A stretch of DNA of 40,568 nt from Peptococcaceae bacterium (lineage in GTDB: Bacteria; Bacillota; Peptococcia; DRI-13; PHAD01): positions 1 through 40,568 of the forward strand of contig JANLFJ010000031.1 in NCBI GenBank assembly GCA_024655825.1. Reading direction: 5' to 3'. Shown in pieces: positions 36,601 to 40,568 of this stretch; positions within the stretch are counted from its first letter, which is position 1; each line of letters starts with the position of its first letter. The notes below the pieces were generated by a model. That model worked only from the letters and a program-made list of their open reading frames with translations, searched no databases and was not told where the DNA came from. A program made the position numbers and the translations under genes.

Positions 36601-37344
36601 ATGGAGGGGAAAAAAGGCAGGGTTTTTGCAGTGGGACTGGGGCCGGGAAGCCCCGGCCATATGACCGGCGAGGTCCTGAAGGCCATTCAGGCCAGCGAAG
36701 CCGTAATCGGCTACCATGTTTATCTGGAGCTAATTGAAGGACTGCTGGCGGGAAAGGAAGTGTTTGCTTCGGGTATGCGCCGGGAGCTGGAACGCTGCGA
36801 AAAGGCCCTGGCCCTCGCCAGAGAGGGAAAAACCGTTTCCCTGGTGAGCGGCGGGGACCCCGGAGTTTACGGGATGGCAGGTCCCTTGCTGGAAATAAAC
36901 GGTAAACAGACGGAGCCGGTAGAAATTGAGGTGGTCCCCGGGGTTACGGCGGCGTGCATGGCCGGGGCCGTCCTGGGCGCGCCTCTCATGCACGACACGG
37001 CTTTGATCAGCCTGAGCGACCTGCTGACACCACGGGAGATGATCAAAAAGCGCCTGCGCCTGGCGGCGGAAGGCGATTTTGTCACAGTGCTTTACAATCC
37101 CGGGAGTGCTTCCCGGTCCGGTTACGTGAAATGGGCCAGGGACATCTTTCTTGAGTACAGAAAAAAAGAAACGCCGGTGGGCATTGTCCGGAACGCGGCC
37201 AGGGAAAACCAGGAGAAATGGATCGCCACCCTTGGGGAACTGGCCGATTATAGTGTGGACATGTTCACTCTGGTCATTATCGGCAACTCCCGGACATACT
37301 GCAGCGGGGGAAGAATGATCACTCCCAGGGGGTATGCATTATGA
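36601..37344 (+). CDS. cbiH: cobalt-precorrin-3 C17-methyltransferase CbiH/CobJ
   Basis: 247 residues, ATG start with GGGGAGG upstream. Ring-contracting methyltransferase. Motifs: VGLGPGSPGHMTGEVLKAIQ, VIGYHVYLELI, SGGDPGVYGMAGPLLE, PGVTAACMAGAVLGAPLMHD and LYNPGSASRSGYVKWA. Normal length, no C-terminal extension with iron-sulfur motif as seen in some CbiH60-type fusions. Stop overlaps the cbiJ start. Confidence 0.95.
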   Translation: MEGKKGRVFAVGLGPGSPGHMTGEVLKAIQASEAVIGYHVYLELIEGLLAGKEVFASGMRRELERCEKALALAREGKTVSLVSGGDPGVYGMAGPLLEINGKQTEPVEIEVVPGVTAACMAGAVLGAPLMHDTALISLSDLLTPREMIKKRLRLAAEGDFVTVLYNPGSASRSGYVKWARDIFLEYRKKETPVGIVRNAARENQEKWIATLGELADYSVDMFTLVIIGNSRTYCSGGRMITPRGYAL

Positions 37345-38159
37345 TCCTGGTCTTGTCGGGAACCGCCGACGGGCGAGAGATAGCCGTGACTTTAAGCAAA
37401 CATGGCTTTCAGGTGCTGGTCTCCGCAGCCACCTCATACGGAGGGATGCTGCACCGGCAGGGTTCGGAGGGGGCTGCCGTAAGAGAAGGCGTTCTTACCC
37501 GGCAGGAAATGGAAGAGCTTATTACCGGGGCTGAAATAAAGGCGGTGGTTGACGCCACCCATCCCTTCGCCGCCGGCGTATCGCGGGCGGCCGTGGAAGC
37601 CTGCGGCAGGCGGGCTGTTCCCTACCTGCGCTATGAGAGGGAGGAGACCAGGCTGGAACCGGGTGCGGAGGGGATTATTGCCGTTTCTTCCTTTAGCGCG
37701 GCGGCTGAAAAAGCCCGGCAGTTTGCGGGCACCGTTTTTCTGACGGTGGGAAGCAGGCACCTGGCCGAATTTTGCCGGGTTATACCGCTGGAACGCCTTG
37801 CGGTCCGGGTGCTGCCGCAGAGCGAAGTCCTGAAAAAATGCGAGGAACTGGGATTGCTGCCCCGCAGCATCGTGGCGATGCAAGGGCCTTTCAGCCGGGA
37901 ACTGAACCGCGAAATGTTCAGGCAGTACCGGGCCGGCGTGATTGTGACAAAAGACAGCGGCCGTGCCGGGGGAACACTGGAGAAGATTTCCGCGGCCCGG
38001 GACCTGAGAATCCCCGTGGTCCTGGTGAAACGCCCCGCCGTCGAGTATCCCCTGGTAGTAAGGGACAAGGATGAACTGCTGGAAGAACTGGGCAGGATTT
38101 TGGGGATACAGGTCAAAGAGACCCGGAGCACGGGGAACAAAAACGCGGCAGGTGAGTGA
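37341..38159 (+). CDS. cbiJ: cobalt-precorrin-6A reductase CbiJ/CobK
   Basis: 272 residues. NADH/NADPH-dependent reduction of the macrocycle. Start MILVLSGTADGREIAVTLSK, then VDATHPFAAGVSRAAVEACG, YLRYEREETRLEP, MQGPFSRELNREMF and VTKDSGRAGGTLEKI, all conserved. ATG overlaps cbiH by 4 bases and its end overlaps the cobO GTG by 4 bases. Confidence 0.95.
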   Translation: MILVLSGTADGREIAVTLSKHGFQVLVSAATSYGGMLHRQGSEGAAVREGVLTRQEMEELITGAEIKAVVDATHPFAAGVSRAAVEACGRRAVPYLRYEREETRLEPGAEGIIAVSSFSAAAEKARQFAGTVFLTVGSRHLAEFCRVIPLERLAVRVLPQSEVLKKCEELGLLPRSIVAMQGPFSRELNREMFRQYRAGVIVTKDSGRAGGTLEKISAARDLRIPVVLVKRPAVEYPLVVRDKDELLEELGRILGIQVKETRSTGNKNAAGE

Positions 38160-38692
38160 CGGTGGAGAAGGGTTATATCCAGGTTTATACGGGAAACGGC
38201 AAAGGAAAGACTACGGCTGCCCTGGGCCTTGGTTTGCGTGCTGTGGGCAGGGGATTGAAAGTGGTAATGTTCCAGTTCTTGAAAGGCGGTTTCAGCGGCG
38301 AGCTTGAAAGTGCGCGGCGGCTGGCTCCATATTTTGAAATACGCCGGTTGGCCGCAGCGGATAAACCAACTTGGGCATTGCTGGAAGATGAAAAAAGTGT
38401 CCTCCGGGAAAAATTCGCTCAGGAATATGCGGAACTGGAAAAATTTATCCGCGAGGGTTCAGCGGACCTGGTTATCCTTGATGAAGTAATGGCGGCGGTC
38501 CATTACGGGTTGCTCAACGCATCCGATGTCTGCAGGCTTATGGAAATAAAGCCGCAAGAAATGGAACTTGTTTTGACTGGAAGGAACGCGCCACCGGAAA
38601 TACTGGAACGGGCCGACCTGGTCACGGAGATGAGGCCGGTTAAGCATTACTACAGCAGCGGAGTAAAGGCCAGGGATGGTATTGAAAGATGA
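38156..38692 (+). CDS. cobO: cob(I)yrinic acid a,c-diamide adenosyltransferase (CobO/BtuR)
   Basis: 178 residues. It attaches the 5'-deoxyadenosyl group from ATP to Co(I). GTG start overlapping cbiJ (GTGA). P-loop YTGNGKGKTTAALGLGLRAV, then MFQFLKGG and VILDEVMAAVHYGLL (Walker B-like), and TGRNAPPEILERADLVTEM near the end; all family landmarks. Last gene of the operon; base composition falls sharply after its stop. No clear + strand terminator is seen directly downstream. Confidence 0.96.
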   Translation: MTVEKGYIQVYTGNGKGKTTAALGLGLRAVGRGLKVVMFQFLKGGFSGELESARRLAPYFEIRRLAAADKPTWALLEDEKSVLREKFAQEYAELEKFIREGSADLVILDEVMAAVHYGLLNASDVCRLMEIKPQEMELVLTGRNAPPEILERADLVTEMRPVKHYYSSGVKARDGIER

Positions 38693-38862: not shown

Positions 38863-38947
38863 CTTTTGTTGATAATTTAAAAAATATGGCGAATAAAACG
38901 AAAGGTATGTTGTTTTATTACAATATAATGTGTTTAATTCGCAATGC

Positions 38948-39148
38948 ATTTCGGTTAAATGAAGTAATCGGACATCGCTCGCTGCGCTCGCTCGTCCGAT
39001 TATCGGGGCGCGGGCTTCGCCTGCTGATAGGCTCGCTCGCGCAAAGCGCTCGCGACATCGCCTATCAGCAGGTTTACGGACACCCCTTCGCCAAGTGCAA
39101 GCACTAGGGCTCAGGGGCGTCGTAAACCCGCGCCCCGTTAGCCGAAAT
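38948..39148. repeat. element A: nested multi-arm palindrome
   Basis: Arms, from outside in: ATTTCGGTTAA (38948-38958) with TTAGCCGAAAT (39138-39148), 11 pairs with one G-T; TAATCGGAC (38965-38973) with GTCCGATTA (38994-39002); GGGGCGCGGG (39005-39014) with CCCGCGCCCC (39127-39136); inside that, CCTGCTGATAGGC (39020-39032) with GCCTATCAGCAGG (39060-39072) and TTTACG (39073-39078) with CGTAAA (39121-39126), the last enclosing AGTGC/GCACT. The whole folds like a cloverleaf in DNA or RNA. GC-rich inside AT-rich flanks. It has no believable protein; an open frame through it encodes only the palindrome. Not recognised as a known element. Confidence 0.8.
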
Positions 39149-39206
39149 TTTCCTTTTCAGTGATCTCTGCGGTTCCATAGGGCTGCTAAAACCAAGCAAA
39201 AATAAA

Positions 39207-39338: not shown

Positions 39339-39875
39339 TTAATTCAGTTTTTCTTGTAAGTATTTTACTTTTCCTTCTAAGGATTTTATAGTATTATCCT
39401 TTTTCACAATGACAGAAGTCATACCTAGAACATTAAACAACTTTCTATCAATTTCCTGCATTTCATCCTTTAACATCCCAATATTATTAATTATGCGTTC
39501 TTTGGCAATTGTTTTAATTTGCCCTAAATCTATTGTTCCCGTTAGTGTTCGGTTATTACCCTTTTCGTCTATGTATTGATAATTCCCTGTAATCTCAATT
39601 TGTATATCGGGAATTGTAAGTTTGCTAGTAGATATGATTGCACAAGTAAAAACAGGAGAAGTAAAATTGTACGCATTTGATTGTAGTACAACACAGGGGC
39701 GTAAAGAATTTTCTTCGCTACCAATATTTTCTCCTAAATCAACGAAGCATACTTCACCACGTTTAACAGTCCAAGTACGTTGATGTTTTTTTGAAATACT
39801 ATAAAATAGTTTTCTCTTATTCCAGTTTAATACACGTTGTGCTTTTTGAAGCAATTCTAATGTTTCTTTATTCAA
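39339..39875 (-). CDS. PemK/MazF-like endoribonuclease toxin family protein
   Basis: 178 residues from the TTG at 39875, which has AAAGGA 8-9 bases upstream; the ATG at 39884 directly abuts that site and is less likely. The core VKRGEVCFVDLGENIGSEEN, then RPCVVLQSNAYN, and CAIISTSKLTIPDIQIEI match MazF/PemK mRNA interferases, with the Arg and Ser/Thr active-site region kept. The GTIDLGQIKTIAKERIINNI block is typical of the longer PemK-like Firmicutes group, which also has an N-terminal helical extension as here. The C-terminal end is coiled-coil-like. No antitoxin gene is visible next to it. AT-rich codon use differs from the operons on the left, which suggests transfer. Confidence 0.85.
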   Translation of the reverse strand: MNKETLELLQKAQRVLNWNKRKLFYSISKKHQRTWTVKRGEVCFVDLGENIGSEENSLRPCVVLQSNAYNFTSPVFTCAIISTSKLTIPDIQIEITGNYQYIDEKGNNRTLTGTIDLGQIKTIAKERIINNIGMLKDEMQEIDRKLFNVLGMTSVIVKKDNTIKSLEGKVKYLQEKLN

Positions 39876-39885
39876 TATTAACATC

Positions 39886-39920: not shown

Positions 39921-39982
39921 AAGGAAAATCCTGCAAGAATATGTAATATATATTTGAATAATAAGGGAAAGGAGGAAATTGT

Positions 39983-40113
39983 ATGCCGACTACAGGAGAA
40001 AAGCCGGGATAGGTTCTTATACTTGTACAAAATGCGGACAAGTTGTCAGGCTTGATGACTCGTCAGATACTTTACCACCTTGCCCAAGATGTAATAATAC
40101 AGAATATCGCTAA
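39983..40113 (+). pseudogene. zinc-ribbon small protein, broken by one-base frameshift
   Basis: ATG 39983 after AAAGGAGG gives MPTTGEKPG and then TAG. One base further along, the frame reads GSYTCTKCGQVVRLDDSSDT, then LPPCPRCNNTEYR and a stop at 40111-40113. The joined product (about 43 residues) is a typical CxxC...CPxC zinc ribbon, of the PTTGEKPGxGxYxC type. Inserting one base in the CCGGG run near 40004-40008 (GGG to GGGG) restores it perfectly. So it is either a recent pseudogene or a sequencing error in a homopolymer. Role of the intact protein unknown. Confidence 0.7.
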
Positions 40114-40298: not shown

Positions 40299-40466
40299 GG
40301 AAAACTTTAGCGGTTTTCACGGGCGGGCGCGCCACATTCCCTAACCTAACCGCAGCAACGGCCGGCTCGCCCAAGCCCAAGAAAAGAGCTTTCTATGGCT
40401 TGGCCATCGCCTTAAGGTTCGGAAACGTTGGCAAACGGGATCGTTGCCGAAATTTTCTTTCCAGCA
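40299..40466. repeat. element B: second GC-rich multi-hairpin element sharing its end with element A
   Basis: It ends CGTTGCCGAAATTTTCTTTCCAG (40442-40464), almost the same as element A's end CGTTAGCCGAAATTTTCCTTTTCAG (39136-39160). Hairpins: CCAAGCC (40371-40377) with GGCTTGG (40397-40403), enclosing AGAAA/TTTCT; and GGCAAACG-GGAT-CGTTGCC (40430-40448). GGGCGGGC near 40321 and GGCTCGCCC near 40365 pair imperfectly. The left boundary (GGAAAACTTTAGCGG) is loosely complementary to the right end. Less regular than A, perhaps decayed. Confidence 0.55.
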
Positions 40467-40498: not shown

Positions 40499-40525
40499 AA
40501 GCTCGTATTCTATTAAGAGCTTTTT
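40499..40525 (+). terminator. possible intrinsic terminator after element B
   Basis: AAGCTC (40499-40504) pairs with GAGCTT (40517-40522), running into TTTTT. The 6-bp stem with a 12-base loop is weak. Confidence 0.35.
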
Positions 40526-40562
40526 GCGATGTAAGCTATTTTTATGATTTTCTAATCGCAAA
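40523..40562. repeat. inverted repeat TTTGCGAT / ATCGCAAA
   Basis: TTTGCGAT (40523-40530) and ATCGCAAA (40555-40562) form a perfect 8-bp inverted repeat with a 24-base spacer, at the end of the window in AT-rich DNA. Meaning unknown; it may belong to a feature that continues beyond the window. Confidence 0.35.
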
Positions 40563-40568
40563 TCAAGC

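Follow-up and report, generated by a model that had tools for sequence, protein, structure and literature searches.

A decayed copy of a probable gene-less integron cassette, folded as an attC-like cloverleaf, near the cobalamin genes of a Peptococcaceae bacterium

The window analyzed here, a stretch of 40,568 nucleotides from a Peptococcaceae bacterium, carries cobalamin biosynthesis genes, including cbiJ/cobK and cobO at 37341-38692. Downstream of this operon lies what is a decayed cluster of integron cassettes, within which a preliminary description had singled out positions 38948-39148 as a nested palindrome of 200 bases. The contig probably terminates within a mobile element present in several copies, since some ten other contigs of this genome have the window's last 50-58 bases (40511-40568), nearly unchanged, at their ends. 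The features discussed below are as follows.

38946 to 38964, forward strand: left flank, GCATTTCGGTTAAATGAAG, resembling the R'' of a host attC (GCA.TTCGGTTAAC expected)
38948 to 38958 with 39138 to 39148: outer stem, 11 pairs, one of them G-T (from the fold)
38965 to 39137, forward strand: conserved unit, a proposed attC-only cassette (constant ends in 21 complete copies, covariation)
38965 to 39003, forward strand: hairpin 1, in which the start TAATCGGAC (38965-38973) pairs with its own R'' GTCCGATTA (38994-39002)
39004 to 39014, forward strand: L'' arm of the 11-bp closing stem (CGGGGCGCGGG), pairing with 39127-39137 (fold)
39019 to 39073, forward strand: arm 2 of the cloverleaf (fold; four pairs changed on both sides)
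39074 to 39125, forward strand: arm 3, with the CTTCGCCAAGTGCAAGCACTAGGGCTC motif (fold)
39127 to 39137, forward strand: closing-stem arm L' (CCCGCGCCCCG), whose last base is the crossover G (fold, covariation)
39138 to 39160, forward strand: start of the following cassette (TTAGCCGAAATTTTCC..), the R' half of the host site (from the starts in intact arrays)
39339 to 39884, reverse strand: PemK/MazF-type toxin of 181 aa, cargo of the following cassette (PF02452, E 2.3e-18)
39979 to 40113, forward strand: small zinc-ribbon ORF of 44 aa, TTG start assumed (PF07295, E 1.6e-7)
40299 to 40443, forward strand: damaged attC of the following cassette, with body, L' and the G|TTGCC crossover (after 40443) present

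The folding of the 200 bases is indeed beyond chance. For 38940-39156, the RNA fold reaches -113.7 kcal/mol against -74.5 +/- 4.3 in shuffled sequences (z -9.1, with 0 of 200 as good), and the DNA fold likewise stands apart from its shuffles (z -8.0, 0 of 200). The nested stems fall where the preliminary description had placed them, and its remark that the stretch encodes nothing sensible agrees with the lack of any ORF of at least 80 aa within it. The 11-pair outer stem exists too, but it belongs to the host site: it arises from the left flank GCATTTCGGTTAA together with the start of the next cassette TTAGCCGAAAT, and relatives found by searching the genome, the order and the phylum have 38965-39137 in common and not this stem. 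The 200 bases are two nested things, a unit of ~175 bp and, around it, an 11-bp stem of the site that hosts it. Rfam, in which a match would have made the structure a known one, gives no family above the gathering score over the feature; the only match in the window is the cobalamin riboswitch RF00174 (15018-15216, 118.8 bits).

Copies of the unit were sought in the genome, its order and its phylum, all genomes compared being drafts, and by pattern in a public genome collection. This yielded 21 distinct complete copies from the order of the window and other lineages of its phylum, mostly of 173-181 nt (the shortest 164 and 170), the named hosts being the Clostridia MAGs SV3-B7.1 and SM3-B6.2, Clostridiales DTU073 and Eubacteriales A05DMB11. 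After a G, the unit starts ATAA.CGGAC or ATAGGACGG, and most copies end ..GCGCC(G/C/A)CG|. The window copy has lost or altered the first base, which is A in nearly all others (AAG|TAATCGG versus NNG|ATAATCGG). More distant copies retain hairpin 1 and the closing stem while their arms differ. A divergent cloverleaf after an attC lies on a contig binned as Thermosipho (L112, JACDNZ010000049.1, 1022-1185), reflecting either transfer to another phylum or mis-binning. Ordinary genes surround one partial copy, which consists of hairpin 1 plus a closing stem that has collapsed (G000:C27, L003:1496-1557); it lies outside any recognised site and counts against reading the unit as a cassette. Plasmid and phage collections gave no match to the unit's DNA, and pattern hits in Geodermatophilaceae and Paraburkholderia were rejected as chance.

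In its general form, the start of the unit, GATAATCGGAC, pairs with its own R'', GTCCGATTATC, across a loop of ~20 nt, and L'', two arms and L' follow. Hairpin 1 covaries, both sides having changed together in G091 (GATAGGACGGAA / TTCCGTCCTATC), and most copies of the G011 type have one mismatched pair in it; the third pair of the closing stem varies among copies as C-G, G-C or T-A. When 12 related copies were aligned over 187 columns, 97.2% of the cells of 51 pairs were paired, and 11 pairs had changed on both sides, against 6.1 +/- 1.2 in shuffles (0 of 500 reached this number), a signal that is abolished by sliding the partners. The fold is therefore conserved, and the homologous copies and compensatory changes that the preliminary description had called for as a check are both present.

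This anatomy is close to that of attC, which the preliminary description had set aside. The unit has the R''-L''-structure-L'-R' layout, its R''/R' and L''/L' arm pairs fold as one strand, its crossover follows a G, and the motif of arm 3 is also found in the terminal arms of the ordinary attC sites of these arrays. It differs in its two large inner cloverleaf arms, its length of about 175 bp and its core, which reads GATAATC / GATTATC in the unit versus GTTRRRY / RYYYAAC in attC; within the arrays, GTTA.. and ..TAAC are seen in the ordinary attC-like sites. The unit may carry an attC of its own at its end: the layout and start/R'' pairing are those of ordinary cassettes, but the core is GAT. 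In a circle, R''-L''...L'-G|ATAATCGGAC would have the regular attC layout except for this GAT in place of GTT. Other cassettes starting with AT exist, one in G139 and another after a unit of L107.

The position of the units is precise. Apart from the window copy, the base before the unit is G in 20 of 20 copies and the bases after it are TTA in 19 of 20; in nearly every copy read, the preceding G belongs to the G^TT crossover in a site resembling attC or attI, within a gene-cassette array that adjoins a tyrosine recombinase. In most copies, another folded module adjoins the unit on the left; where intact, it is arranged like an attC: R'' (e.g. TCGTCTAAC), 1-4 nt, L'' (e.g. GCATTCCCG), a terminal structure, L' (CGGGAATGC), 4-7 nt and R' (e.g. 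GTTAGCTGAAAT). As assessed by eye, these left modules differ widely between copies. The unit separates the G of R' from its TT without replacing anything, and the G011 array contains nearly identical attC sites without it (L029:8120-8229) and with it (about L029:8960-9246). In G006 and G091, the left neighbor is instead an attI-like site directly downstream of the integrase gene, and in G055, G101 and G139 the unit follows sequences resembling the site that adjoins the integrase in G172, although a search of these stretches found no integrase gene next to the unit. Matching attI sites are followed by a gene cassette in G004 and by the unit in G006, while G011 and G012 have a common attI and then different cassettes. 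In intact arrays, a cassette begins with TTA(G/T)(G/A)CGMAAT. At least 8 uninterrupted Watson-Crick pairs join R'' to the start of its own cassette in 29 of 38 cases, as against 4 of 38 for the start of the next cassette and 2 of 38 for a random start.

The copy in the window appears in a poorer state. Judged by its sequence, the left flank looks like the R'' of a host attC without L'' and L', or alternatively a remnant of an attI, and it has no homologue elsewhere in the order. In the damaged attC of the following cassette, R'' ends after GGAAAACTT and L'' is absent, although the body (40321-40453) matches the attC bodies of several genomes, including the intact array of G014, at 74-85%. An integrase of the array type was not found in the window's genome, nor did tblastn detect a remnant of one in the last 3 kb of the window. 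Given a host attC without its L arms, a damaged next attC and a genome without such an integrase, the window copy is best regarded as a remnant.

Elsewhere, the full integron platform of an integrase, an adjacent attI and an attC array in one orientation is found in the related arrays, which are real, and is absent from the window's own genome. The array-adjacent genes encode tyrosine recombinases of 355-399 aa. Around 24 such genes, several of them at contig ends and a few without detected sites, a simple attC finder of our own making, tightened after a first run that was too loose, counted 46 attC-like sites that lie downstream and on the strand of the gene, as against 2 that lie downstream on the opposite strand and 3 that lie upstream. 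The DNA covered came to 126 kb on the downstream side and 152 kb on the upstream side, and the background was 6 hits per 329 kb of shuffled sequence. A contig from a viral collection (L198) has a like arrangement with six evenly built attC sites. Two further contigs from IMG/VR (L199, 3300014502_000005; L204, 3300042549_009448) encode a shorter tyrosine recombinase of 270-275 aa, without the extra N-terminal domain described below and with 86 residues from GLR to HxxR, together with 6 and 9 attC-like sites on the opposite strand; this is another recombinase lacking I2 with an attC-like array.

By sequence and fold search, the best solved relative of the array integrases is VchIntIA (PDB 2a3v), with which they have the catalytic residues and the association with attI and an attC array in common. 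Unlike this IntI, they lack the segment 184-238, the location of I2 and patch III, which is replaced by about 13-20 residues; the IntI-specific additional domain is thus missing, and the distance from GLR to HxxR is 92-93 residues in 15 of 15, whereas two of the phylum's true IntI have 125 and 133. Their cassettes also lie downstream of the 3' end of the integrase gene, and they carry an extra N-terminal domain of ~75 residues. This domain is weakly HARP-like (three of five give E 5e-4 to 2e-3, short of the Pfam cut-off), a likeness that rests on these scores since an AlphaFold model of low confidence did not resolve the domain; that it aids recognition of folded DNA is speculation on our part. 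All four integrases tested pass the cut-off of the XerA-type family NF040815 (NCBIfam), some closely, and fall below that of TIGR02249. They resemble XerA-type recombinases in having no I2, and differ from them in the extra domain and in being tied to attI and attC arrays. A quick tree separates the array enzymes and IntI from XerC/D-like proteins, its internal order not being firm. Among 398 genomes sampled from the phylum, only 2 have true IntI above the TIGR02249 cut-off (G344:C1:1041228-1042172 and G165:C122:3188-4054), both outside the 30 genomes matching the array-recombinase profile, a number that includes IS91-type and partial matches. Tyrosine recombinases of ~300 aa beside several copies were also considered as the integrase. 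They were rejected on the context of the one read with its surroundings (G000:C28, L053:1190-2340), where a ~280 aa tyrosine recombinase is followed by an IS91-type-transposase-like ORF and adjoins a truncated attC. Similar recombinases occur on several cloverleaf contigs of G011.

Could the unit be moved by something other than an integrase? As a multicopy, gene-less and palindromic sequence, it has the traits of a MITE- or PATE-like, IS-related non-autonomous element that is carried by a transposase and targets attC/attI crossovers, and IS91-type elements are present on several of the same contigs. Targeting of this kind is also practised by IS1111-attC elements. Group IIC-attC introns provide a further known example (PMC8876359). 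We nevertheless consider such an element unlikely, as the ends of the unit obey the start/R'' rule of cassettes, its arm 3 motif is common to attC terminal arms, it is found at attI too, no target duplication is visible beyond a shared CG, and no transposase-bearing version with these ends was seen. The crossover position and the start/R'' rule also point away from IS200/IS605 and REP sequences.

Were the unit instead a structured RNA, or a terminator or promoter of transcription borne by the array, with the DNA fold as a by-product, the very stable RNA fold and its covariation would be accounted for, and gene-less cassettes of Vibrio show promoter activity (PMC11014356). However, there is no Rfam match, a search within the unit found neither a pair of promoter-like hexamers nor a hairpin resembling a terminator, and both the crossover position and the start/R'' pairing would be left unexplained, which makes this reading very improbable. 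Transcription of the unit is nonetheless compatible with the data; cassette and transcription roles are not exclusive, and a cassette may act in transcription as well. Least probable of all, to our mind, is that the unit is a mere extension of its host attC, a long extra cloverleaf between L' and R'. Most copies do directly adjoin an attC-like module, yet the attC bodies that precede the unit vary, in G006, G055 and G101 it comes after an attI-like site with no attC, and attC sites without the unit occur in the same array.

We therefore favor, as the likely explanation, that the feature in the window is a decayed copy of a gene-less integron cassette, the whole ~175 bp unit of which is one attC-like site. 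The unit would fold as single-stranded DNA, its start and R'' meeting L'' and L' to form a recombination site, which an integron-type tyrosine recombinase would exchange at an attI or attC, with G|TT as the crossover, so that insertion would land between the G of the host site and the TTA of the next cassette. The fold is conserved, the exact crossover position is repeated, the anatomy is that of a cassette, and a recombinase gene adjoins the arrays; excision and integration, the choice of strand and the enzyme responsible are what we infer. Against a cassette speak the unit's own GAT core, the window copy following no intact attC, and the integrases lacking the domain that IntI needs for folded sites. 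Two of the three guesses of the preliminary description, a non-autonomous mobile element and a recombination site that works in folded single-stranded form, come nearly right when taken jointly, while the third, a structured RNA, gained no specific support.

Gene-less (ORF-less) cassettes are known from Vibrio superintegrons (PMC11014356) and from oral Treponema (PMC8876359). Like these, the unit would be an ORF-free cassette of an integron array, with G|TT crossovers at its boundaries. It differs in consisting almost only of an attC-like site that recurs across many copies and genomes, in its GAT core, and in the different integrase of its host integrons. An earlier description of the unit was not found among open-licence PMC papers, where absence is no proof.

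Complete integrons are reported to be almost absent from Firmicutes, with one, in Limnochorda pilosa, found with IntegronFinder 2.0 (PMC9024848). Integrases are held to have gained the use of single-stranded hairpins through the I2 helix, although causality is unproven because deleting I2 kills IntI1 (PMC7790495). In our view, the odds are about even that an integron lineage of this phylum recombines folded single-stranded attC sites by means of an integrase in which the I2 helix was never present or has been replaced, perhaps aided by the N-terminal HARP-like domain, with the cloverleaf as a selfish gene-less cassette specialised to it. If true, natural integrons without I2 and with attC-like arrays downstream, occurring in many genomes, would make the question of I2 directly testable, and tools that require the IntI-specific domain would class such arrays as clusters lacking an integrase. 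As a minimal gene-less cassette, the cloverleaf would be a natural test substrate, and possibly a cassette that spreads itself.
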